From assembly GCF_014270065.1 (NCBI RefSeq), contig NZ_JACNME010000006.1:124001-188000 (forward strand): DNA of 64,000 bases. The letters are read 5' to 3'. Both the position numbers and the translations under genes were made by a program. This DNA comes from Quadrisphaera sp. RL12-1S. Lineage in GTDB: Bacteria; Actinomycetota; Actinomycetes; Actinomycetales; Quadrisphaeraceae. Every line of letters begins with the position of its first letter. The stretch's first letter is position 1. Of the stretch, positions 36,745 to 48,256 are shown in pieces. The notes below the pieces were generated by a model. The model did no database searches and was not told the DNA's origin. It saw nothing but the letters and a program-made list of their open reading frames with translations.

Positions 36745-37341
36745 ATGAGCACCCACGAGACCCACCGCTTCCCCTCCGCGGACACCGCCCCGACCGGGAC
36801 GACCACCGCCCAGGCGCCTCGCGTCGCCAGCAGCGGTGGCGGCGGTGGTGGCGAAGGTGGTGGCGCTACGAGCGCCGGGGCGGGCTGGCGCACGCCGCCG
36901 GTGGAGCCGTTCGCACCGCCGGCCTCTGCCTCGACCTCTGCCCCTGCCCCTGCCCCTGCCCCACCCGTCCGGCGCGGTCACCGGGTGACGGCGCTCATCG
37001 CCTCCGGGGCGCTGGCCGCGGGGCTGCTGGGCGGCGTGGGGATCGGGCGGCTGACCGCTCCGTCGTCCGCCTCGGCCGGTGCCGGGGGGTTCCAGCAGGG
37101 CGGACCGGGCGGCGCGGGCGGGATGCGCGGCCAGGGCGGCTTCGGGGGCCAGGGCGGTTTCGGGTCGCAGGGCGGCGGGACCGGCCAGCAGGGCCAGCTC
37201 GGCCAGCAGGGCAGCACCTCCCAGGGCGGGGCCGCCGACCCCGGCCAGGCGGGCGCTCTGCCCGACCAGGGGGGTGCGGCGGCCGACGGCACCGCCGCGG
37301 ACGGCGCGGCCGGGACGTCGTCGTCCTCCAGCACCACCTGA
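36745..37341 (+). CDS. Gly/Gln-rich single-pass membrane protein, unknown
   Basis: 198 residues of no family I know. A cytoplasmic N-terminal region rich in Gly, Ser and Ala-Pro repeats is followed by one membrane segment (residues about 82-102, VTALIASGALAAGLLGGVG), then an outer tail made of GGxGGQ-type repeats, Ala/Asp-rich and ending in a run of Ser and Thr. Coding is supported by a strong third-position GC bias, the hairpin placed exactly at its end and the divergent promoter, but composition alone makes it uncertain. The outer tail resembles the Gly-rich insert of the GT39 protein nearby. Confidence 0.55.
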   Translation: MSTHETHRFPSADTAPTGTTTAQAPRVASSGGGGGGEGGGATSAGAGWRTPPVEPFAPPASASTSAPAPAPAPPVRRGHRVTALIASGALAAGLLGGVGIGRLTAPSSASAGAGGFQQGGPGGAGGMRGQGGFGGQGGFGSQGGGTGQQGQLGQQGSTSQGGAADPGQAGALPDQGGAAADGTAADGAAGTSSSSSTT

Positions 37342-37367
37342 GCCGGTGGCCGGGCCGAGCCACCGGC
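37342..37367. terminator. Hairpin between convergent genes
   Basis: GCCGGTGGC (37342-37350) pairs with GCCACCGGC (37359-37367) around an 8-base loop, starting right at the stop of the Gly-rich protein gene and before the end of the MFS gene. It could serve both strands. Confidence 0.6.
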
Positions 37368-37412
37368 GCGGTCCTCGACCACCCCCTCATCGGGGCCGCC
37401 CAGGAGCGGCCC

Positions 37413-38999
37413 TCATCCCCGGGCGGCGGGCTGCCTCTCGGGCGCCGTCGCCGCGCGACCGCCGAGGGACCGGGTGGCCAGCAGGCCGACCAGCAGGAAG
37501 GCCGCGGCGGCGAACGCCGCCAGCCGGGTGCCGTCGGAGAAGGCGTCCTCGGCGGCGGCCCGCACCGCTCCGGTGAGGGAGGCGATGGCCCCGCCCGAGG
37601 AGCCGACGACGGCGCTGACCACCTGCCCGGTCGCTCCGGAGGACGTCAGCGAGCTCTGCGCGGTGGAGTAGAACAGCGTCCCGACCACGGCGATGCCCAG
37701 GGCGGACCCGAGCTGGCGCGAGGTCGACTGGGTGCCGGAGGCGCGGCCGCTGTCCCCCACCGGCACGTCCCGCAGGATCACCCCGGTGAGCTGCGCCGTC
37801 GCCAGGCCCACCCCGAACCCGTAGACGGCCAGGAACGGCACCACGGACAGCCAGGTGGTGTCGCGGGAGACCACCAGGCCGATGCCGGCGATGCCCACCA
37901 CCTCGCAGACCAGCCCCCAGCGCACCACGGCGAGCGGCTCGATCTTCCCGGCCTGCGCCCCGGCGAAGCCCGAGGCGACGAACGCCCCGCCGGCCAGCGC
38001 CAGGAGCACCAGCCCGGACTGCACGGCCGAGTAGCCGAGGACGTTCTGCAGCCAGATGGGCAGCACCAGCACGATGCCGAACTCCCCCAGCGCCACGACC
38101 AGCGCGACGAGGTTGCCGTTGCGGAAGGAGCTGATGGCCAGCAGGTCCAGGGCGAGCAGGGCGGGGGCTCCGGCGGCGATGCGGCGCCGCTCCACCGCTA
38201 CGAACACCGCGCCGGCCACCACGGCCACGGCCAGCGCCACCGGCACCGGGGAGACCGACCACGGCCACGTCCACGAGCCGACCTCGAGCGCCGTGCGCGT
38301 GCTCCACCAGCCCAGCTCGCGGCCCTCCACCAGCCCGAAGACGAGCGCACCGCACGCCACCGCTGACAGCACCGCGCCGCGCACGTCGAGGCGGGGCGGG
38401 CCGTCCTGGCGGGACTCGTCGACGAAGAGCAGGGTGCCGACCACGATCGCGGCCCCGAGGACGACGTTGATGCCGAAGGCCCACCGCCAGGAGAGGTCGG
38501 TGGTGAGCCAGCCACCGAGCAGGGGGCCGACGGCGGTCATGCCGCCGATGGTGGAGCCCCACACCGCGAAGGCGATGCCGCGCTCGCGACCGCTGAAGGT
38601 GGCGTTGACGATGGACAGCGTGGTCGGCAGCACCATCGCGCCGCCGACGCCCTGCACGAAGCGCGCGCCGATGAGCGCGGCGGCGCTGGGCGCCAGCGCC
38701 GCGAGCACCGAGGCGGCGGTGAAGACGACGACGCCGACGAGCAGCAGCCGGCGGCGGCCGTAGGCGTCGGCCAGCCCTCCGAAGGTCAGGAGCAGCGCCG
38801 CGAAGACGACGGTGTAGGACTCCTGGATCCACAGGACGTCGGTGGGGCCGGCGTCGAAGTCGGTGACGATCGACGGCACCGCGACGTTCACGATGGTGCT
38901 GTCGACGATGATCGTCGCCACGGCGAGGCTCACGGCCACGAGGCCGAGCCAGCGGCGGTTGCGCACGGTTCCTCCAGAGCTGTCGGCGGTGTCCTCCAC
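37413..38999 (-). CDS. DHA2-family MFS drug exporter
   Basis: 528 residues with about 14 membrane segments, the size of the EmrB/QacA (DHA2) group. Motif A is GGLADAYGRRRLL between helices 2 and 3; helix 1 carries VDSTIVNVAVPSI; helix 5 has GPLLGGWLTTDLSWRWAFGIN, the motif C region (quoted in part). It should export drugs or toxic metabolites using the proton gradient. Start GTG at 38999; the divergent marR gene begins at 39077 with a strong palindrome between them. The substrate is unknown. Confidence 0.87.
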   Translation of the reverse strand: MEDTADSSGGTVRNRRWLGLVAVSLAVATIIVDSTIVNVAVPSIVTDFDAGPTDVLWIQESYTVVFAALLLTFGGLADAYGRRRLLLVGVVVFTAASVLAALAPSAAALIGARFVQGVGGAMVLPTTLSIVNATFSGRERGIAFAVWGSTIGGMTAVGPLLGGWLTTDLSWRWAFGINVVLGAAIVVGTLLFVDESRQDGPPRLDVRGAVLSAVACGALVFGLVEGRELGWWSTRTALEVGSWTWPWSVSPVPVALAVAVVAGAVFVAVERRRIAAGAPALLALDLLAISSFRNGNLVALVVALGEFGIVLVLPIWLQNVLGYSAVQSGLVLLALAGGAFVASGFAGAQAGKIEPLAVVRWGLVCEVVGIAGIGLVVSRDTTWLSVVPFLAVYGFGVGLATAQLTGVILRDVPVGDSGRASGTQSTSRQLGSALGIAVVGTLFYSTAQSSLTSSGATGQVVSAVVGSSGGAIASLTGAVRAAAEDAFSDGTRLAAFAAAAFLLVGLLATRSLGGRAATAPERQPAARG

Positions 39000-39013
39000 C
39001 GGGTGTGCCAGGA

Positions 39014-39035
39014 AACAGTAAGCCTGCTGACTGTT
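39014..39035. promoter_or_regulatory. MarR operator between mfs and marR
   Basis: AACAGT-A-AGC-CT-GCT-G-ACTGTT, a 22-base dyad with only the seventh position of each arm and the central pair unmatched. It sits in the 77-base gap between the divergent transporter and MarR genes, where a MarR dimer would block both. Confidence 0.7.
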
Positions 39036-39076
39036 GTCCGCCCGCCGGTCCCGCCGCGCGACCTAGGGTGGGAGCC

Positions 39077-39505
39077 GTGGACCAGCCAGCCCGCCCGGCG
39101 GAACCGGGAGCGACCGACGAGTGGCCGACCGGGCGCCTGCTCTCGGCGGCGGCGCGCCGCGTCGAGCATTCGTGGCAGCTGGCACTGGCGGGCATCGGCA
39201 TCAGCCACGCCGGCCTCGTGGTGCTGCACCTGCTGCAGCAGGGCCCCGCGTCCCAGAAGGAGCTGGCCACCGGCGCCCGCGTCTCGGCGCAGACCATGTC
39301 GCGCACGCTGGAGCGCCTCGAGCGCGACGGGTTCGTGACCCGCGCGGCCGACGACGGTGACCGGCGCCGCTCCACCGTGGTCCGCACACCGGCGGGCGCT
39401 GCGGTCTTCGAGCGCGCCCGCTCCCTCGAGGACGACGTCTTCCCCGCCGTCGAGGACCCGGCCCGGCTGCGCAGCCTCCTGCTCCAGGTGCTGCACCACC
39501 CCTGA
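39077..39505 (+). CDS. MarR-family repressor of the adjacent exporter
   Basis: 142 residues, winged-helix MarR fold: LVVLHLLQQGPASQKELA, recognition helix VSAQTMSRTLERLERDGFV, and wing ADDGDRRRSTVVRTPAG. GTG 39077 gives the normal family N-terminus; a longer reading from 39005 would run through the operator. Likely a ligand-released repressor of itself and the divergent MFS exporter. Its stop falls in the first of three tandem 13-base repeats. Confidence 0.85.
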   Translation: MDQPARPAEPGATDEWPTGRLLSAAARRVEHSWQLALAGIGISHAGLVVLHLLQQGPASQKELATGARVSAQTMSRTLERLERDGFVTRAADDGDRRRSTVVRTPAGAAVFERARSLEDDVFPAVEDPARLRSLLLQVLHHP

Positions 39506-39570
39506 GCACCACCCCTGAGCACCACCCCCGAGCGCCGACTGGCCCGGCAGGTCTGCCGAAGGGGGGCCAG
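39493..39570. repeat. 13-base tandem repeat and hairpin after marR
   Basis: Three copies of GCACCACCCCTGA at 39493-39505, 39506-39518 and 39519-39531 (the last with one change); the first ends with the marR stop. A hairpin follows, CTGGCCC 39539-39545 with GGGCCAG 39564-39570, and an inner GGCAG-GT-CTGCC at 39546-39557. Probably the marR terminator. Confidence 0.5.
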
Positions 39571-39614
39571 GGGCCTGGTCGCGGTGGCACCGCGGGCGGG
39601 TCGCGTCCGACAGG

Positions 39615-39869
39615 ATGGACCTCGGCAGACGCTCCTCGCCCGAGGGGCAGCACCTGGGGGGCGCTGTGGGACCGACGGTTCGCTGCGGGGCGCGGCAGGG
39701 CCTGCGCCACCAGTGCGGGCTGGCCGCCCTGCACGAGGGCGACCACCGCAGCGGCGACCGCTCCTGGGCGCGCGGCCCCCGCGACCAGGCCGCCTACGAG
39801 CGCCAGCTCGAGGAGCTGAGGGTGCTGCGCGACCAGGCCATCGGCTGGACGCAGCGCGCCGAGGGCTGA
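39615..39869 (+). CDS. Small C2H2-motif protein, unknown family, copy 1
   Basis: 84 residues, not a family I recognise. The centre reads CGARQGLRHQCGLAALHEG followed by DH, giving C-x9-C-x5-H-x3-H, and then RSWARGPRDQ and a short helix with LEELRVLRDQ. The same motif and the RSW-RG-Q and LRD segments recur in the 95-residue protein at 44104, which supports coding and a real family. The four Cys/His residues could hold zinc. No clear ribosome site precedes the ATG at 39615. It lies downstream of marR and is convergent with a membrane protein gene. Confidence 0.55.
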   Translation: MDLGRRSSPEGQHLGGAVGPTVRCGARQGLRHQCGLAALHEGDHRSGDRSWARGPRDQAAYERQLEELRVLRDQAIGWTQRAEG

Positions 39870-39959
39870 TCCCGCAGCCCGCGACGGCGGCCCACCCCTG
39901 CCCGAGCACGCCCCCCACCCACCGGCGGCACCGCCCCCACCACCGGAGGGGGAGCGCGC

Positions 39960-40388
39960 TCAGGAGGTGACCTGCTGCACCAGCTGCACGATCCACGGCC
40001 AGATGTCCCGGGCGCGGTCCACGGCCTGGTTCGCCGTCGCGACGATCGGCCAGACCGACGCCACCAGCGAGACCAGCCAGGCGAGGACCGCGAGCGTCCA
40101 GGACAGCCAGTGCTGGCGCGAGAGCGCCGCACCCACGAGCAGGGCCAGCGACACCAGGAAGCCCAGGACCACGACCGCGGTGATGGCCCCCACCGGCACG
40201 GACAGCAGCGGGCCCGCGCTGGCGGCCGCCCCCACGAGCCCGAGGACCGGTCCGAGCACGAGCAGCGCGGTGAGCACCACGAGCACGGCCCCGACCAGGG
40301 CGGCGACGAAGCGCAGCGGGAGCGCCCTGCCCTGGCGGGCGCGCGTGCGGAAGGTGGTGCGGGACGAGTACGAGACGGAACGGGCCAC
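39960..40388 (-). CDS. Small integral membrane protein, unknown
   Basis: 142 residues: a basic N-terminus (ARSVSYSSRTTFRTRARQ), then three to four membrane segments from residue 25 to about 120, and an amphipathic end (WPWIVQLVQQVTS). No family recognised. The GTG at 40388 is chosen because GAGGAGG lies 6 bases upstream on this strand. It is divergent from the response regulator gene at 40575, and a short palindrome at 40466-40478 lies between them. Confidence 0.65.
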   Translation of the reverse strand: MARSVSYSSRTTFRTRARQGRALPLRFVAALVGAVLVVLTALLVLGPVLGLVGAAASAGPLLSVPVGAITAVVVLGFLVSLALLVGAALSRQHWLSWTLAVLAWLVSLVASVWPIVATANQAVDRARDIWPWIVQLVQQVTS

Positions 40389-40465
40389 GGCGGCCTCCTC
40401 GGTCTGGAGCCGGCGGCGCTGACCTGCCGCCGCTGCCACCGCGACGACGCGACGGCCGAGTCGTT

Positions 40466-40478
40466 CTTACACCGTAAG
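40466..40478. promoter_or_regulatory. Short palindrome CTTAC-ACC-GTAAG
   Basis: A 5-base-arm dyad, AT-richer than its surroundings, in the gap between the divergent membrane protein and response regulator genes. It could be an operator or part of a promoter. Confidence 0.3.
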
Positions 40479-40574
40479 GAGGCGTTGCGCCTGTCGGGGA
40501 GGACGGGCGGCGGAGGGGGTGACCTGCGCCGCAGGGAGCAGCGCGACGGGCGCCCGGTGCCGCATCATCGCCGG

Positions 40575-41381
40575 GTGGCCCCCACCGACGCCTCCAGCGC
40601 CATCCGCGCGGGCCTCGGCCTGGAGCAGGTGAGCGTGCTCCTGGTCGAGGACGACGCCCGGCTGCAGGCCGCGGTCGCCCGCGCCCTCGGCGAGGCCGGG
40701 GCGCGCGTCGAGGCCGTCGGCACCGGCCAGGCGGCGCTGGCCGCGGCCGGGCCCGGTCCCGCCTGCCCGTTCGCGGTGGTCGTGCTCGACATCGGCCTGC
40801 CCGACTCCGACGGGCGCGACGTCTGCCAGGCGCTGCGCAGCCGCGGCATCACCGCACCCGTGCTCTTCCTCACCGCGCGCGGTCAGGTGGAGGACGTCGT
40901 CTCCGGCTTCGGAGCCGGCGGCGACGACTACCTGTCCAAGCCGTTCCGCACCCCGGAGCTGCTGGTCCGCCTCGGGGCGCTCGCGCACCGCGCCGGTGCC
41001 CCGCTCGTCCCCGGAGCGGCGGGTCCCGCGGACGCCCCCGCCGCGGTGGCCCCCGGCAGGACCGGACCAGCGCAGGGCGCCCCGTCGCCCGCGGACGCTC
41101 CCCCGCCGCTGCGCCTGGACCCGGTCGGACACCGGCTGCTGGGCACCGTCGAGCAGCCGCTCACCCCCACCGAGTACCGCGTGCTCGCCGTGCTGGTCAA
41201 CGCGCCCGGCGAGGTGGTGCGCCGCAAGGCGCTGGCGGCGGCCGGCTGGTCGCACGGGGCGATCGTCTCGGACAACACCCTGGACCAGTACGTGGCGCGG
41301 CTGCGCCGCAAGGTGGCCGCGGCCAGCGGCGGCGCGCACCAGATCACCACCGTGCACGGCGTCGGGCACCGCTTCTCGTGA
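40575..41381 (+). CDS. OmpR-family response regulator (second pair)
   Basis: 268 residues. Receiver: LLVEDDARL, phosphoacceptor Asp in VLDIGLPDSD, FLTARGQ and LSKPFR. An Ala/Pro linker of about 40 residues separates it from the winged-helix domain (LTPTEYRVLAVLVNAPGEVV; YVARLRRKV; TTVHGVGHRFS). The start is unsure: GTG 40575 is used, but GTG 40629 or 40635 would begin directly at the receiver, the latter with GGAG at a fair distance. Its stop overlaps the kinase start as GTGA. Confidence 0.85.
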   Translation: MAPTDASSAIRAGLGLEQVSVLLVEDDARLQAAVARALGEAGARVEAVGTGQAALAAAGPGPACPFAVVVLDIGLPDSDGRDVCQALRSRGITAPVLFLTARGQVEDVVSGFGAGGDDYLSKPFRTPELLVRLGALAHRAGAPLVPGAAGPADAPAAVAPGRTGPAQGAPSPADAPPPLRLDPVGHRLLGTVEQPLTPTEYRVLAVLVNAPGEVVRRKALAAAGWSHGAIVSDNTLDQYVARLRRKVAAASGGAHQITTVHGVGHRFS

Positions 41382-42826
41382 GCGCTGTCGAGGTGCCCGC
41401 GGGCGTGGCGCCGCCCCGGCGGCGCTGGCGGCGGGGCCGCCGTGGACCGGGCAGCCTGCGCAACCGCGTGGCCTGGTCGGCCACCGCCGTCACCGCGGGC
41501 TGGGTGCTGGCCCTGGGCGTGGGCGGGAACCTGCTGGTGGCGGCCTCGCTGAGCCGCGCCGCGGACGACTCCCTCCTCGCCCGCGCGGAGGCGGCCTCCG
41601 CAGCGCTGGAGACCGGCCCCGACGGGGAGCTCAGCGTCTCCGGCCCCGCTGACGACCGCGCCCTGGTGACGGGCACGTGGCTGGTCGACTCCCAGGGCGT
41701 GGTGGTCAAGGCACCGTGGGACGCCGCCGACGAGGCCACCGCGGGCGCGGAGTCGCTCGCCCGCCAGGCGCTCGCGGGCGAGGGCACCGGCAGCGACGGG
41801 TCCGCGGCCGGCACGGTGGACCTCGACGACCCGGTGCGCCTGCTCGCGCTGCCCGTCGAGCGCGGCGACGACGTGCTCGGGGTGGTGGTCATGAGCGCCT
41901 CGCTGAACCCCTACTCGCGGCTGCGCGACGTGGCGGTGGTCTCGAGCGCGCTCGCCGGGCTGGGGCTGCTCGTGGTGGTGCACCTCGTGCTGCGGGCGGC
42001 CCTCGGTCGAGCACTGGCACCTGTCGCGCGCATGAGCGCCCAGGTGGACCGGTGGAGCACGGACGACCCGGAGCAGCGCCTCGGCCAGGACCACCGGCCC
42101 ACCGAGCTGGCGGAGCTGTCCAGCACCCTCGACGGCCTCCTGGCGCGCATCGCCGCCGTCCTGCGCCACGAGCGCCTGCTCACCGCCGAGCTCTCCCACG
42201 AGCTGCGCACGCCGTTGGCCCAGCTGCAGGCCGAGCTCGACTGGCTGCGCTCGGGGTCGCGGACCGCGCAGGAGCGGGAGGAGTCCCTGGCGGCCCTGGA
42301 CGCCTCGGCCGGGCGGATGCGCGCGGTGGTCGACGCGCTGCTGGCCTCGGCGCGGACCAGCTCGGCCGCGCCCGGCCGCTGCGACGTGGCGTCCGCGCTG
42401 GCCGCGGCCGTCCAGGAGGTCACCGGTCCCCCCGGCTCCCACGACGACGGCGGGCCGGCGGTCACCCTGGACCTGGCCGAGGGCCTCGCGGCCGGTGTCG
42501 AGGCGGCCCTGCTGGAGCGCGCGGTGGCACCGCTGCTGTCCAACGCCGTGCGGCACGCCCGCGGCCGGGTGGCGGTCAGCGCCCGCCGGGAGGGGCACGA
42601 CGTCGTGGTCAGCGTGCGCGACGACGGCGCGGGGATCCCCGCCGCGGTGGTCGGCCAGGTGCTCGAGCCGGGCTTCCGGGGTGCCCCGGACGACGGCCAC
42701 CCCGGCGCCGGGCTGGGCCTGGCCCTGGCGCAGCGGCTGGCCGCCAGCGCGGGCGGCGCCGTGGTGCCGCACCCCGCCGGGCCGGACGGCGGAGGCGCCG
42801 TGGACCTCGTGGTCCCCGGCGCCTGA
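41378..42826 (+). CDS. Sensor histidine kinase (second pair)
   Basis: 482 residues. N-terminal membrane helix near residues 30-55, a short extracytoplasmic region of about 120 residues, a second helix near 190-208, a HAMP-like linker, H box ELSHELRTPLAQ, N box LLSNAVRHARG, G1 VRDDGAGIP and G2 GAGLGLALAQ. Coupled to the preceding regulator by GTGA overlap. The signal and regulon are unknown. Confidence 0.87.
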   Translation: MSAVEVPAGVAPPRRRWRRGRRGPGSLRNRVAWSATAVTAGWVLALGVGGNLLVAASLSRAADDSLLARAEAASAALETGPDGELSVSGPADDRALVTGTWLVDSQGVVVKAPWDAADEATAGAESLARQALAGEGTGSDGSAAGTVDLDDPVRLLALPVERGDDVLGVVVMSASLNPYSRLRDVAVVSSALAGLGLLVVVHLVLRAALGRALAPVARMSAQVDRWSTDDPEQRLGQDHRPTELAELSSTLDGLLARIAAVLRHERLLTAELSHELRTPLAQLQAELDWLRSGSRTAQEREESLAALDASAGRMRAVVDALLASARTSSAAPGRCDVASALAAAVQEVTGPPGSHDDGGPAVTLDLAEGLAAGVEAALLERAVAPLLSNAVRHARGRVAVSARREGHDVVVSVRDDGAGIPAAVVGQVLEPGFRGAPDDGHPGAGLGLALAQRLAASAGGAVVPHPAGPDGGGAVDLVVPGA

Positions 42827-42851
42827 GCGGGCCGCGCTCCGAGGGGGACTG

Positions 42852-43832
42852 CTAGCGCGCGGCGCCGACCCGCGCGCCCAGCGCTGCTGCGCCGCCGCGG
42901 GGCCCGTCGTCGTCGAGGTCTGACGCCGCTGAGCGGGCGGCCCAGACGCGCACCTCCTCGACGGTGCGGGCCCAGTCCGTGCCCGGGGCCAGGCGCCCGG
43001 TCTCCATGTGGGTGGCGAGGTTGGGCGCCGCGGCCAGGAAGGTGCGGCGCCGACCGGGGCGGCGGTGGGAGCGCAGGGCGGTGGCCGCCAGGAAGGGCAG
43101 CAGCAGCGCGTGCCGCACGGCGCCGCGCAGGCCGCGCCCACCGCCCAGCACGGGCTGGACCACCGGCCGCAGCAGGTCCGCGGCCGTGTAGGGGGAGAAC
43201 CCCTGCAGGACCAGGCAGGTGTCGTGGTCGCGCAGCATGGTGCGGTGCCCCGCCATGCACAGGCGGAAGACGCCCAGGTCCTGGCGCAGCGCACCGACGC
43301 GGGCGCCGAAGGTGGAGGCGGTGCTGCGCAGCCGCGCCCACTCCTGCTCCCCCACGCGCAGCGGTGCCCCGGCGCTCCAGCCGCGGGGGTCGGGCAGCTC
43401 GTGCTCGTCGGAGCGGAGCACGGAGCGGCCGGGCGTGGAGCCGTAGAGGGCGAAGTAGTCGGCGGACGCCGTCTGGGGGGCCTGCGCCGCCGCGGCCAGG
43501 GAGCTCAGCGCGTCGGGCCGGTACAGGTAGTCGTCCTCGCTGAACCACACCACGTCGTCGTCGTGCCAGCCCGGGGTGCGGGTCGCCAGCTGCAGCGCGC
43601 CCCAGTACGAGGCGCGCATGCCCGACCCGTCCAGCTGCTGCACGCGCCCGGCGCGGCGCATGAGCACGAGCAGCTCCTCGGGCACCGGTCCGTCGTTGAG
43701 GAAGACCACGTCAGCGTCCACCCCGTCGAGGGCGCGCACGAACGACTGCAGGCACAGCAGCTTGCTGTACCCCTGCGGGCGGCCCTTGCGGTTGTCTCCC
43801 CCGTAGGAGCGGTACACGACGCGGAGGGTCAT
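42852..43832 (-). CDS. Glycosyltransferase-like protein, unknown
   Basis: 326 residues. It begins MTLRVVYRSYGGDNRKGRP and shows a GT-A-like layout: VFLNDGPVP after a first Rossmann-like half, then FSEDDYLYRPDAL, where the Asp pair could bind a metal and nucleotide sugar, and HDTCLVLQGFSPY. The C-terminal 60 residues are Ala/Arg-rich. I know no named family for it; a role in sugar transfer to a surface polymer is only inferred. ATG 43832 or GTG 43835. Convergent with the kinase gene (25-base gap) and divergent from the small C2H2-motif gene. Confidence 0.6.
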   Translation of the reverse strand: MTLRVVYRSYGGDNRKGRPQGYSKLLCLQSFVRALDGVDADVVFLNDGPVPEELLVLMRRAGRVQQLDGSGMRASYWGALQLATRTPGWHDDDVVWFSEDDYLYRPDALSSLAAAAQAPQTASADYFALYGSTPGRSVLRSDEHELPDPRGWSAGAPLRVGEQEWARLRSTASTFGARVGALRQDLGVFRLCMAGHRTMLRDHDTCLVLQGFSPYTAADLLRPVVQPVLGGGRGLRGAVRHALLLPFLAATALRSHRRPGRRRTFLAAAPNLATHMETGRLAPGTDWARTVEEVRVWAARSAASDLDDDGPRGGAAALGARVGAAR

Positions 43833-43931
43833 CACTCGCCCCTGAGCTCTGCGGTCATGAGCAGACGCTAAGCACGTCGACGCGGCGGTGCACGGGCCGC
43901 AGGGCCCGTCCGGGGCCCTGGCGGGGCCTGT

Positions 43932-43949
43932 GTTCAGGTCGCGTTCAGG
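43932..43949. promoter_or_regulatory. Direct-repeat box GTTCAGG-N4-GTTCAGG
   Basis: Two identical heptamers at 43932-43938 and 43943-43949, 11 bases apart, the arrangement bound by OmpR/PhoB-family regulators; actinobacterial PHO boxes have the similar GTTCACC. It lies in the gap between the divergent genes at 43832 and 44104, near two regulator genes of that class. Confidence 0.4.
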
Positions 43950-43978
43950 ACTCGGCGCCCGGAACGGCCCGCCACAGC

Positions 43979-44011
43979 CCCGGTGCGGTCCCGGTGCGGT
44001 CCCGGTGCGGC
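43979..44011. repeat. 11-base tandem repeat CCCGGTGCGGT
   Basis: Three consecutive copies (43979-43989, 43990-44000, 44001-44011, the last with one change), about 93 bases before the gene at 44104. The 11-base period equals one helical turn, so a phased protein-binding array is possible; slippage is the simpler explanation. Confidence 0.5.
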
Positions 44012-44103
44012 TCCCGAAGGGCAGACGGCGGCACGACGACGACGTCCGCGGTCCGTCGGGCACGACGCGTGATGCTCGAGGCTCGCTCCGAGGGGGAACC
44101 ACC

Positions 44104-44391
44104 GTGATCTTCGCACCCACCGACAGCGGGGAGACCCCCGACACGCCCTCCGGCCACCACGAGGCCGGAGGCGGTGACGAGGCGCCGCTGAGCGCACCCG
44201 CCGCGTGCGGGGCGCGGCGGCGGGGCGCCCGCTGCGGCCTGGCCGTCCTCCACGACGGGGACCACGCCGGCGACCACGCCGGCAGCGAGCGGAGCTGGCC
44301 GCGAGGTCGGCGCGCCCAGCGCCGGCGCGACGCCCTCGTCGCGGCCGTCGAGCGGCTGCGCGACGAGGTCGCGCAGCCGCTCGAGGTGTGA
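44104..44391 (+). CDS. Small C2H2-motif protein, unknown family, copy 2
   Basis: 95 residues, paralogue of the protein at 39615. The core CGARRRGARCGLAVLHDG then DH gives C-x8-C-x5-H-x3-H, followed by ERSWPRGRRAQ and a helix ending VERLRDEVAQPLEV. Relative to copy 1 there are four extra residues after the motif (a second D-H pair) and a longer Asp/Glu/Pro-rich N-terminus. GTG 44104 has a GA-rich GAGGGGGA upstream. It lies between the glycosyltransferase-like gene and the chemotaxis receptor. Function unknown; metal or nucleic-acid binding is a guess from the motif. Confidence 0.6.
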   Translation: MIFAPTDSGETPDTPSGHHEAGGGDEAPLSAPAACGARRRGARCGLAVLHDGDHAGDHAGSERSWPRGRRAQRRRDALVAAVERLRDEVAQPLEV

Positions 44392-44412
44392 CCGCCCGGC
44401 GGCCCGCGGCGC

Positions 44413-45999
44413 TCAGACCCGGAAGGCCGACACCGCCTGGCGCAGCTCGCGGGCGGTGCGCTGCAGGTCGTCGGCAGCGGACGTCGTGGAGGACGCGCTG
44501 GTGGTGGTCTGGCGCGACGCCGCGGCCACGCCGTTGATGTTGAGGCTGATCTCCTGGGTGCCCGAGGAGACCTCGTGCACCGAGCGGACCATCTCTGCCG
44601 TCGTCGCCGACTGCTCCTCCACCGCCGAGGCCACGGTGGCCTGCAGCGCGTCGATGCGGCCGATGACCTCGCTGATCTGCTCGATCGCCGCGGTCGCGTC
44701 GGCCGCGTCGGCCTGAGCGGTCTGCACCCTGGCCACGATCTGCTCGGTGGCCTTCGCCGTCTGCTGGGCCAGGTCCTTGACCTCACCGGCCACCACCGCG
44801 AAGCCCTTGCCGGCCTCGCCGGCGCGGGCGGCCTCGATGGTCGCGTTGAGGGCCAGCAGGTTGGTCTGCTCGGCGATCGTGGTGATGAGCTTGACGACGT
44901 CGCCGATCTCGCGGCTGGACTCGCCGAGCCGGTCGAGGATGCGCCCGGCGGACTGCGCGGTGGTGACCGCGCCGGCGGCGGTCTGGGCCGCGGTGGCCGT
45001 GGAGGAGGCGATCTCCCCGATCGCCGAGGTCATCTCCTCACCGGCCGCGGCGATGGTGGACATCGACGCCGAGATCTCCTCGGAGGCCGCGGCCACCAGC
45101 TGCGCCTGGGCGGAGGACTCCTCAGCGCCCGACGACAGCTGGGCGGACACGGCGGTCAGCCCCTCGGAGGTGCGGGCCAGGTCGTCGGCGCGGCTCGAGA
45201 TGCTGCGCACCACCCCGGCGAGGTTCTCGAGCGAGGCGTCGGTGGCGGCGGCCAGCTGGCCGACCTCGTCGCGGCTGCTCACGCCGGTGCGCTGGTCCAG
45301 CCGCCCCTGGGACAGGCCCTCGACCACGGTGAGCACGCGGGTGAGCGGGCGGGAGATGGAGCGCGCCAGGACCACCGCCACGGTCACAGCGACCAGCAGC
45401 GCGGCCAGGGCCGTCGCGGCCATGAGGACCATCGCCGTGCGGAACGCCCGGTGCCCGGCCGCCGCCGCCGCGGCACCGCTGTCCAGCTCCGCGGTGTAGA
45501 GGCCGTCCATCTGCTCGGACACGGTCTTGGTCAGCGGCGTGACGACCTCGTCGCGCTGCTTGACGTAGCCGGCGTTGTCCTTGGCCTGGGTGTAGGTGAA
45601 CAGGGCCTTGCGAGCCTCGCGCCACCTCCCGACCGCGTCCCACGCCGTCGCCCGCTGGGCGGCGCTGGCGCCGGTGCGCCCGCCGTCGTAGCGCTGCCAG
45701 TCCGCCAGGAGGGCCGCCTCGTGCTCGGCGTTGCCGTCCAGGGCCAGCTTCATCGTCTGGGGGTCGTTCATGCCGGCCTGCGCGCGGGAGGTGTCCTGGC
45801 GCAGCAGCTGGATGTCCAGGCGGGTCGCGGCGAGCGCCTCGAGGGAGACGAGGTTGCCGGAGTACATGGCGTCGAGCCGCTCCTGGGCCTGCGACAGGCG
45901 CAGGGCCCCGATGCTCAGCACCACCAGCAGGAGCACGCAGACGACGCCGAACGCGGCGAAGAGCTTGGTAGCGACCTTGAGATCGCGCAGACGTGCCAT
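44413..45999 (-). CDS. Methyl-accepting chemotaxis protein
   Basis: 528 residues. Membrane helix near residues 11-33, an extracytoplasmic four-helix-bundle sensor (about 34-185), a second helix near 190-212, HAMP, and a long coiled-coil signalling domain whose tip reads [19 protein letters not shown]. It should signal to CheA/CheW, none of which is in the window. The ligand is unknown; 4-helix-bundle sensors often bind small organic acids or amino acids. Divergent from the oxidase gene at 46129. Confidence 0.92.
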
Positions 46000-46103
46000 G
46001 GCGGTGTCCCCCGGGGCTGGTCGAGCGGCTTCCACCTCAGGTGTCGGCAGCCCCCGAGGCGGACTGGACCGCACCGCCATGATCGACATCACCGCTGGTC
46101 ACA

Positions 46104-46123
46104 GGGCACAGTGGGGCACAGTG
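46104..46123. repeat. 10-base tandem repeat before the oxidase gene
   Basis: GGGCACAGTG twice in tandem (46104-46113, 46114-46123), ending 5 bases before the start codon at 46129. It may affect translation or bind a regulator; slippage is equally likely. Confidence 0.4.
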
Positions 46124-46128
46124 GAGCG

Positions 46129-47265
46129 GTGAGCGACACCCACCACCTCGTCGTCGGGGCAGGGCTGGCGGGGGCCAGCACCGCCTGGCGGCTGGCGCAG
46201 CGCGGGCACGAGGTCACCCTCGTCGACCGCACCCGTCCGGCCGCCGCGGACGGCAGCTCCCACGGCTCGGCGCGCATCCTCCGCTTCGCCTACCCCGAGG
46301 CGCTCTACGCCCGCCTCGTGGTGCGCGCCCTCGACGGGTGGCGCGAGCTCGAGGCGGCAGCGGGGACGTCGCTGCTCACGCCGGCGCCCGCGCTCGACCA
46401 CGGGCCCGGCCGGGACCCCCGGGCGCTGGCGCGGGTGCTGGCCGAGGTCGGGGTCGAGCACGAGGTGCTGACCGCCGCGCGGGCGCGGGCGAGGTGGCCG
46501 CAGGTCGCCGCGGACGGTGAGGTGCTCCACCAGCCGGGCGGGGCGGTGGTGGACGCCGAGGCGACGGTGCGCGCCGCGGTCGCCCAGGCCGAGGCGCACG
46601 GTGCGCGCGTGCTCACCTCCTGGCCGCTGTCCTCGCTCGAGCGCACCGGGAGCGGACCGCGCACCCGCTTCACCGCGCGGTCCGGTGACGGGCGGGCGCT
46701 GGAGGCGGCGCACGTAATCGTCGCCGCGGGGGGCTGGCTGCCCGACCTGCTGCCCGCCCTCGGGCTGCCGGCGCGGTTCCTGGCCGCGCTGCCGCCGCTG
46801 GTGGTGACGCAGGAGAGCGCCCTCCACCTGCCCTACCGGGACGCCCGCGCGCACGACGCGTGGCCGACCGTCATCCACCAGGGCACCACCGGGCCGGCGG
46901 TCTACGCGCTGCCGGGCGGGCGCGACGCGGGGTTCCGCGGCCTCAAGGTCGCCGAGCACGCCACGGGCCCGCGGATCCCCTCGGCCGCTCACCGGTCCGG
47001 CGTCGTCGACCCCGCGGGCCGCGAGCGGCTGCTCGCGCACGCGGCGCGGCACCTGCCGGGCGCGGTGCTCGAGCCGTACGCGGAGACCACGTGCCTGTAC
47101 ACGAGCACGCCGGCGGAGGACTTCGTCATCGACGGGGCGGACGGCGTCACCGTGGTCTCCGCGTGCTCCGGGCACGGGGCCAAGTTCGCACCGCTGCTGG
47201 GAGAGCTGGCCGCTGACGCAGCGACGGGCGCCGGCGTCGTGCCGGACAGGTTCCGGGTCAGCTGA
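46129..47265 (+). CDS. Monomeric sarcosine oxidase-type FAD oxidase
   Basis: 378 residues, DAO superfamily. FAD motif VVGAGLAGASTAW at residues 8-20, then the family-specific GSSHGSARILRFAYPE. Cys322 in TTCLYTSTP corresponds to the Cys that binds FAD covalently in monomeric sarcosine oxidase and N-methyltryptophan oxidase. It would oxidise an N-methyl or secondary amine, giving formaldehyde or another aldehyde plus hydrogen peroxide. The exact substrate cannot be read. Its last 15 bases overlap the converging epimerase gene by 8, within a perfect palindrome. Confidence 0.8.
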   Translation: MSDTHHLVVGAGLAGASTAWRLAQRGHEVTLVDRTRPAAADGSSHGSARILRFAYPEALYARLVVRALDGWRELEAAAGTSLLTPAPALDHGPGRDPRALARVLAEVGVEHEVLTAARARARWPQVAADGEVLHQPGGAVVDAEATVRAAVAQAEAHGARVLTSWPLSSLERTGSGPRTRFTARSGDGRALEAAHVIVAAGGWLPDLLPALGLPARFLAALPPLVVTQESALHLPYRDARAHDAWPTVIHQGTTGPAVYALPGGRDAGFRGLKVAEHATGPRIPSAAHRSGVVDPAGRERLLAHAARHLPGAVLEPYAETTCLYTSTPAEDFVIDGADGVTVVSACSGHGAKFAPLLGELAADAATGAGVVPDRFRVS

Positions 47266-47272
47266 CCCGGAA
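47251..47272. terminator. Perfect 22-base palindrome shared by two stop codons
   Basis: TTCCGGGTCAG-CTGACCCGGAA is fully self-complementary. It holds the stop codon of the oxidase gene (TGA 47263-47265) and of the epimerase gene (TGA, 47260-47258 on the minus strand). By symmetry both proteins end in FRVS (RFRVS including the next residue). With no loop it would need some unpaired central bases as an RNA hairpin; it probably ends transcription both ways. Confidence 0.65.
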
Positions 47273-48256
47273 GCGCTCCACCAGGCCGTCGACCACGCCG
47301 TTCCACCGCTGGTCCACCGCGCGGCGGGCGGGGTCGGCGTCGTGCCAGGCGACGATCTCCTCGGCCCCGCGCTCGAAGGGCACCACCGCGCGCCAGCCGG
47401 GGGCGAGGGCCTTCACCTTGCTGTTGTCGAAGACCATCGAGTGGGCCTTGTCGCCCAGCAGCCCGGCGCCCCACTCGGGGTCCACGGCGTTGATGGCGTC
47501 CGAGGGCACGTGGACCAGCTCGGGGTCGGCCACCCCGGCGGCGCGGGCCAGGGCCCGGGCGATCTGGTCCCAGGTCCAGGCGTCGTCGCCGGTGATGTGG
47601 AAGGCCTCCCCCAGCGCCCTCGGCTGGGCGAGCAGCGGCAGGAGCGCCCCCGCGAAGTCCGTGTGGTGGGTGAGGGTCCACAGCGACGTGCCGTCACCGG
47701 GGACGACGACGGGCTGGCCGCGCCGCATCCGCTCCACGAACGACCAGCCGCCGTCGAAGGGCACGAGCGTGCGGTCGTAGGTGTGGGACGGGCGCACCAC
47801 GGTCACGGGGAAGCCCTCCTCCCGGTAGAGGGAGGTGAGGAGGTCCTCGCAGGCGATCTTGTCGCGGGAGTACTGCCAGAACGGGTTGCGCAGCGGCGTG
47901 GACTCGGTGACGGGAAGCCGCTCCGGCGGCGTCTGGTACGCCGAGGCCGAGGAGATGAACACGTACTGCCCCGTGCGGCCGCGCACGAGGTCGGTGGCGG
48001 TGCGCACGTGGTCGGGGGTGAAGGAGAGCCAGTCGACGACGGCGTCGAACTCGAGGTCCCCCAGGGCCTCGCGCGCGGCGGCGGGGTCGCGGACGTCGGC
48101 GGTGTGCCGCACGGCCCCCTCCGGCAGCGGGCGCAGGGACGTGGTGCCGCGGTTGAGCACGTGCAGCTCGTGCCCGCGCTCCACGGCGAGCGCGGACGCG
48201 GCGGAGCTGATGATGCCGGTGCCGCCGATGAAGAGGATCCGCAGGGGCGTGGCCAT
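47258..48256 (-). CDS. NAD-dependent epimerase/dehydratase (extended SDR)
   Basis: 332 residues. Nucleotide motif FIGGTGIISSAAS at residues 9-21, catalytic YSRDK (YxxxK), HITGDDAWTWDQIARAL and PSHTYDRTLVPF. Resembles atypical SDR5/UDP-glucose epimerase-like reductases often found with sugar catabolism genes in actinobacteria. It lies downstream of the LacI gene on the same strand with an 80-base gap, and next to an arabinan-type utilisation cluster, so a role on a sugar or sugar nucleotide is likely, though the substrate is unproven. Confidence 0.75.
   Translation of the reverse strand: MATPLRILFIGGTGIISSAASALAVERGHELHVLNRGTTSLRPLPEGAVRHTADVRDPAAAREALGDLEFDAVVDWLSFTPDHVRTATDLVRGRTGQYVFISSASAYQTPPERLPVTESTPLRNPFWQYSRDKIACEDLLTSLYREEGFPVTVVRPSHTYDRTLVPFDGGWSFVERMRRGQPVVVPGDGTSLWTLTHHTDFAGALLPLLAQPRALGEAFHITGDDAWTWDQIARALARAAGVADPELVHVPSDAINAVDPEWGAGLLGDKAHSMVFDNSKVKALAPGWRAVVPFERGAEEIVAWHDADPARRAVDQRWNGVVDGLVERFRVS

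Follow-up and report, generated by a model that had tools for sequence, protein, structure and literature searches.

What are two very small proteins, each carrying two cysteines and two histidines in a recurring pattern, doing in a 64,000-nucleotide stretch of Quadrisphaera sp. RL12-1S DNA (hereafter the window)? The initial annotation of the window regarded the two open reading frames (ORFs), here called A and B, as paralogues, and a direct comparison bears this out, with 29 of 77 columns identical and E 5e-7 in a single BLASTP comparison. From the searches described below, A and B are two of three paralogues in a small-protein family that is restricted to the genus, and the core of the family is similar to a signature, C-x(8-14)-C-x-L-x3-H-x-G-x-H...W, which recurs on viral contigs and in actinophages. 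Regarding function, the reading we favour, at a probability of about 45%, is that the proteins are zinc-stabilised mini-modules that would offer a partner protein their C-terminal helix and act in trans.

We refer to the genome of origin as G000, to the other genomes of the genus as G001-G005, and to the paralogue groups as A, B, C and D. In a six-frame search of G000, B as query recovered A (E 3.9e-6), and a search with A returned seven matches at E up to 1, three of which are members: A, B and a third paralogue, C, outside the window (G000:C5:357871-358074, E 8.4e-14; 357880-358089 in the profile searches). Of 59 relatives searched with B, 55 had matches at E up to 1, mostly at chance level; the orthologue in G002 was recovered with E 4.4e-16. 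Profile searches brought the family to ten members: G000 and G002 each have A, B and C, G001 has A and C, and G004 and G005 each have one copy of a divergent form, D. Members are present in five of the six genus genomes, B was not found in G001, and no member was found in G003, where only two weak matches appeared. Both were taken as chance: one (E 0.0186) holds a single Cys with no second Cys or first His in frame, and the matched stretch of the other (E 0.048) is devoid of Cys. Three further candidates were rejected, G001:C2:203541 as it lies antisense to a called gene and lacks the first Cys, and a phage match (H10) and a plasmid match (H43) as both are antisense to annotated genes. Relics of A or C were sought at nine loci of three neighbour genes in G003, G004 and G005, and the seven loci scanned for the motif showed no full copy of it.

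Outside the genus, none of seven genomes of the same taxonomic family matched at E up to 0.1 in the profile search. At the level of the order, matches at E up to 0.01 came from 20 of 297 genomes, five of these being genus members, and none of the 15 non-genus loci has the motif by one strict motif expression; in the phylum, ten of 396 genomes match, one of them G000, and the motif is likewise not present in the nine other loci by one strict expression. As up to 17 (order) and 14 (phylum) candidates were scored per genome, absence beyond the taxonomic family is weak evidence. The annotated lineage-specific character is supported for the full-length proteins by the contrast between five of six genus genomes and none of seven others, and the family reaches beyond the pair first noticed, with homologues outside the window both as a third paralogue and as members in other genomes.

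The Cys/His arrangement reads C-x9-C-x5-H-x3-H in A and C-x8-C-x5-H-x3-H in B, in agreement with the initial annotation, and a C-x8-C or C-x9-C spacing is found in ten of ten members. C24, C34, H40, H44 and W51 (numbering of an 84-residue ORF A) are invariant in all ten, as is the entire core of C, C, L, H, G, H and W. Four invariant ligands make metal binding plausible. The tails, on the other hand, differ among the paralogues where the core does not, and so does the charge: B is acidic, with a calculated isoelectric point (pI) of 6.2 and 5.2 in two species, whereas A, C and D are basic (pI 8.9 to 11.6), rich in Arg and free of Lys. Neither A nor B has anything above the Pfam cut-offs. Six of the ten members were scanned against Pfam, NCBIfam and PHROGs, where the best E-values were 0.2, 0.067 and 0.19, so that no curated family was reached by a criterion of the curated cut-off or E 0.001, and a Pfam zinc-finger match was obtained for none of the six.

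We then turned to the evidence that the frames are coding. Paralogues were compared six times (A with C in three genomes, A with D in two comparisons and C with D in one, with B left out). Each time the proposed frame outscored the other five by BLOSUM62, with 81 to 131 as compared to 53 to 95 for the next-best frame. Orthologue lengths are fixed at 67/67/67 residues for A, 65/65/65 for C and 61/61 for D. The Nei-Gojobori ratio of nonsynonymous to synonymous substitution (dN/dS) is below 1 in all eight orthologue pairs (0.27 to 0.76). It is lowest in D, at 0.27, lies between 0.56 and 0.63 in A and between 0.69 and 0.73 in C, and reaches 0.76 in B; these values are rough because GC-rich third positions limit synonymous change. 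The third-position conservation expected of a real family is in part seen: an excess is present, clear in D alone and slight in the other three groups.

An ORF of 84 residues is present at 39615-39869 of the plus strand with the spacing given above, as initially annotated for A, but its start is probably the GTG at 39666 rather than the ATG at 39615, giving a protein of 67 residues. We read A in this way because a 1-nt gap between ATG and core in the G001 orthologue puts the ATG out of frame, because a G-rich stretch stands just before the position of the GTG in A of G000, G001 and G002 (both by DNA alignment), and because the changes in the leader between G000 and G002 fall 3/4/1 at codon positions 1/2/3, eight in all. 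A shared GTG is likewise found in two other groups: in C, where the ATG is lost in G001, and in D, following a 1-nt difference. ORF B, with the 95 residues at 44104-44391 (plus strand) originally assigned to it, opens with a GTG that aligns opposite an ATG in the G002 orthologue, and its extra GDHA results from a tandem duplication (Table 1).

Table 1. Features of proteins A and B and of the adjoining DNA, in window coordinates.
Feature	Position	Strand	Description
Protein A, most likely frame	39666..39869	+	GTG start, 67 residues
Residues of protein A			Cys7, Cys17, His23, His27, Trp34; predicted helix 38-66
Putative 5' leader of A	39615..39665	+	17 codons of the 84-residue ORF, more likely leader than coding
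Protein B	44104..44391	+	GTG start, 95 residues; C-x8-C-x5-H-x3-H plus one extra His (-x3-H)
12-bp tandem duplication in B	44260..44283	+	GACCACGCCGGC twice; not in the G002 orthologue
CCGAANNNNAGACGGCG upstream of B	44014..44030	+	shared with the upstream region of D (G004)

The initial annotation recognised no family with this pattern, a view that holds for curated families in the libraries searched but not for the core, which is met again on viral contigs and among actinophages. Searching viral contigs with the DNA pattern of C-x-L-P-x-G-H-x-G-x-H retrieved 42 stretches. After duplicate removal, 37 distinct viral ORFs were left, of which 22 have the nearest Cys 8-14 residues upstream and 29 have a Cys within 17 residues, at a background of 0.128 for a random 9-residue window; a Trp follows at most 15 residues downstream in 22 of the 37, as compared to a background of 0.196. 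Both backgrounds were computed on the long open frames that these loci contain, which may include non-coding ones. The upstream Cys and the Trp were not in the search pattern, whereas the LPxGH form was and is therefore partly imposed. In a profile-profile comparison, the family profile matched ten viral-contig segments from the second Cys to the Trp with E 2.7e-6 and a probability of 88.5; the segments were ten of the 11 listed with both Cys and Trp, and the score is somewhat flattered because they were chosen for these residues.

Similar proteins were met in phages. A made-up peptide of 20 residues matched 29 phage records under 18 phage names (28 Gordonia, 1 Streptomyces) at E 3 to 10. In four of these records that were read, a Cys stands 11, 12 or 14 residues before the second Cys in three and four residues before it in one, and a Trp lies within 25 residues in two. 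Gordonia phage Pons gp66 carries the full signature at its end. Three actinophage hypothetical proteins with the signature were noted (L174, L175 and L177), one of which, L175, has a second Cys/His cluster before it. On chromosomes outside the genus, the signature was found in a single ORF (G337, L165) in a search of 198 phylum genomes, with matches at E up to 0.01 in seven of them. The viral-type proteins are equally without a curated name: ten small signature proteins, nine from viral contigs and one from Pons, gave no Pfam match at E up to 0.1, ten longer ones none at E up to 0.001, and PHROGs 33110, 13875, 20343 and 21374, with no assigned function, match weakly over the motif. Direct searches for relatives were negative. 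The 18 stretches that a family-specific scan of viral contigs picked out include no relative, tblastn of A in phages returned seven records, all at E 0.2 or worse, and a viral-contig protein of 61 residues gave no match in phages as query. Nothing on the signature was found in the open-access library searched.

Comparing the two sets, ligand order and spacing are the same, as are the Gly between the two His and the downstream Trp. The Cys 8-14 residues before C-x-L-x3-H-x-G-x-H and the Trp a few residues after the last His, both typical of the viral signature, are found in ten of ten members of the genus family. In contrast, the G-H of the viral and actinophage form is replaced by L-H or S-H in the genus, with a Gly before the His in none of the ten, and the Pro after the Leu is found in three of ten (D twice and B of G002). 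The genus family moreover carries a tail of its own, unlike the viral signature proteins.

Known zinc modules offer a partial likeness. The classical C2H2 zinc finger is C-x2-4-C-x12-H-x3-5-H, and the CCHC zinc knuckle is C-x2-C-x4-H-x4-C. With the former, including the bacterial Ros type, the family shares two Cys followed by two His and the H-x3-H element, but the distance between the Cys is 8-9 rather than 2-4 and that from Cys to His 5 rather than about 12. The second half of the motif is reminiscent of the knuckle, with a Cys, a short loop, a His, three residues and a ligand, but the first Cys lies 8-9 residues upstream and the last ligand is a His. Membership in either class was consequently rejected, since the spacing fails both and the last ligand differs from that of CCHC.

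An AlphaFold2 model of A, built on a 14-row alignment, has a mean predicted local distance difference test score (pLDDT) of 77.2 and a predicted template modelling score of 0.55. The helix spans residues 38-66, with block pLDDT values of 87-96 from residue 41 on. We place little weight on the model, as a 2025 paper on another small zinc finger apparently describes a predictor as confident also for random sequences of similar size or the like (PMC12383448). A profile sequence search of the PDB gave two matches, E 0.24 and 0.36, which were taken as chance.

How could such a protein work? According to the reading we favour, the genes would be expressed, and Cys7, Cys17, His23 and His27 of A would bind one Zn(II) that holds the tiny module together, with Trp34 packing on it. 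The predicted C-terminal helix would then dock on a partner protein, the small protein serving in trans as an adaptor or modulator. We prefer a protein partner because the tails differ while the core is constant, and because B is acidic as opposed to A, C and D; the differing gene neighbourhoods described below fit action in trans rather than a part in one operon. A number of observations weigh against this proposal. The tails of D are unlike those of A-C, so that by sequence the helix is not family-wide. The B orthologues differ in length (95 and 88 residues), and the constraint on A, B and C looks weak, with dN/dS at 0.56 to 0.76. The Cys/His part of the AlphaFold2 model has short strand or bridge residues with block pLDDT of only 61-74, and Foldseek, run against the PDB with E up to 10, returned nothing.

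The most serious competitor to this adaptor role, although a somewhat unlikely one in our estimate, is that the proteins are small zinc-dependent regulators that bind DNA or RNA through the Cys/His module and the Arg-rich helix. Nucleic acid is a frequent target of Cys/His modules of such size, and the basic, Arg-rich and Lys-free composition of A, C and D would suit such a function. The acidic nature of B in both species speaks somewhat against it, and so do the spacing, which is unlike that of the classical C2H2 finger, and the scans of six members, where no Pfam, NCBIfam or PHROG family appeared below E 0.05. The four invariant Cys/His in a very small protein may alternatively hint at metal buffering or a redox role, with the cluster rather than the helix being the active part, as a zinc reserve or a thiol switch. 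A gene for a flavin adenine dinucleotide (FAD)-dependent oxidoreductase indeed lies two genes beyond B (46129-47265), but tblastn with a shortened oxidoreductase frame found nothing in the DNA that was retrieved around the orthologues, and none of ten neighbours scanned with Pfam belongs to a metal-transport family. Buffering would presumably not need a single site, an invariant Trp and a tail conserved in A-C, and we deem this explanation improbable.

The viral distribution of the signature suggests another origin, namely that the genes are domesticated actinophage remnants, of which the genus keeps decaying or repurposed copies. The 42 viral-contig stretches and the Gordonia and Streptomyces phages are congruent with this, as is the patchy presence, with B missing in G001 and no member found in G003. 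Yet A and C occupy the same sites in three species at fixed lengths, none of the ten Pfam-scanned neighbours is of a phage-type family, and neither the family scan of viral contigs nor tblastn of A in phages (none below E 0.2) retrieved a relative, which leaves the idea unlikely, albeit less so than metal buffering. Finally, GC-rich DNA leaves all frames open, a 12-kb stretch here is overlapped by 61 ORFs of 60 residues or more, and A, B and C have but a mild third-position excess, all of which could be expected of spurious ORFs without a protein product. That the A, C and D sites share one frame, the best of six in 6/6 comparisons (B was not in this test), that the motif is common to viral-contig proteins, and that a G-rich, ribosome-binding-like stretch precedes the GTG starts render this the least credible of the explanations.

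Going one step further, C-C-H-H-W could represent a minimal zinc-stabilised interaction module used in unannotated proteins across actinobacteria and their phages, of which the genus would have made a three-member regulatory family with tail-specific partners; this is a speculative extension that we regard as rather doubtful. Nevertheless, a four-ligand signature without a curated family leaves its carriers labelled 'hypothetical', and a profile would allow them to be grouped, with the genus-restricted paralogues, at conserved sites and lengths, as handy test cases outside phages. Their interest would be modest if they proved to be no more than ordinary small proteins of one lineage. As the motif has neither name nor function in the libraries searched, we consider the family moderately interesting and the evidence for its function modest.

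The initial annotation also drew attention to a two-component pair and a glycosyltransferase-like gene flanked by A and B. The genes for the response regulator, the histidine kinase and the glycosyltransferase-like protein do lie between A and B in the window and are present in G001, but they are not conserved partners: response regulator and kinase are not found between the A and B orthologues of G002, and B is missing in G001, and an operon or partner role for them was consequently rejected. In G002, a 27%-identical stretch of 109 columns that lies upstream of B and overlaps its start in part (L130 15514-15810, minus strand) is probably a remnant of the glycosyltransferase-like gene, the 327-residue product of which has no Pfam match at E 0.001.

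In G000, G001 and G002, the strand opposite A carries, downstream of A, a gene for a hydrophobic protein of 159 residues, with DUF6594 as best Pfam match (below cut-off); it directly adjoins A in G000 and is separated from A by one gene call in the other two. B adjoins a chemotaxis-receptor (MCP) gene in G000 and G002, and G001 has the MCP gene but not B. C adjoins a PLD-domain gene (assigned by Pfam) and a transporter-like gene in three species, for which 'cardiolipin synthase' and 'potassium transporter' would be candidate names, and D adjoins an FkbM-domain gene in two species. With neighbours differing among A, B, C and D, the family is not tied to one operon. In G003, a relative of the window MCP gene (L189, G003:C7:157250-158824) is reported with two internal TAG codons; it lies approximately 110 bases from a relative of the 159-residue gene, with no room for B, the kinase or the glycosyltransferase-like gene.

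The DNA preceding B contains a further shared element. Among four genomes searched, exact CCGAANNNNAGACGGCG occurs once each in G000 and G002, before B, and in G004, before D; it is not present in G001, the genome without B and D, and is not kept upstream of D in G005. Allowing one mismatch adds 33 sites in the four genomes, with 15 matches in all for a reversed control pattern. The pattern was derived from these same upstream regions and the comparison is partly circular; all that it newly shows is that the four genomes have no other exact sites. A common promoter or the common descent of B and D may lie behind the shared element. In the same region, an 11-bp unit is repeated 3.4 times (43979-44016).

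As for the leader of A, an RNA element or promoter was considered and dropped, as there was no Rfam match at E up to 1 over 37000-48000 and scans for sigma-70-type promoters and terminators over 39300-44600 found none. The leader does hold a dyad, CCTCGCCCGAGGGG, at 39634-39647, nearly unchanged in G002 and G001, which has one match in the window and at least one also in 37 of 100 shuffles. Further upstream, a 13-bp unit is repeated 3.2 times at 39493-39533, spanning the stop codon of a MarR-type gene.

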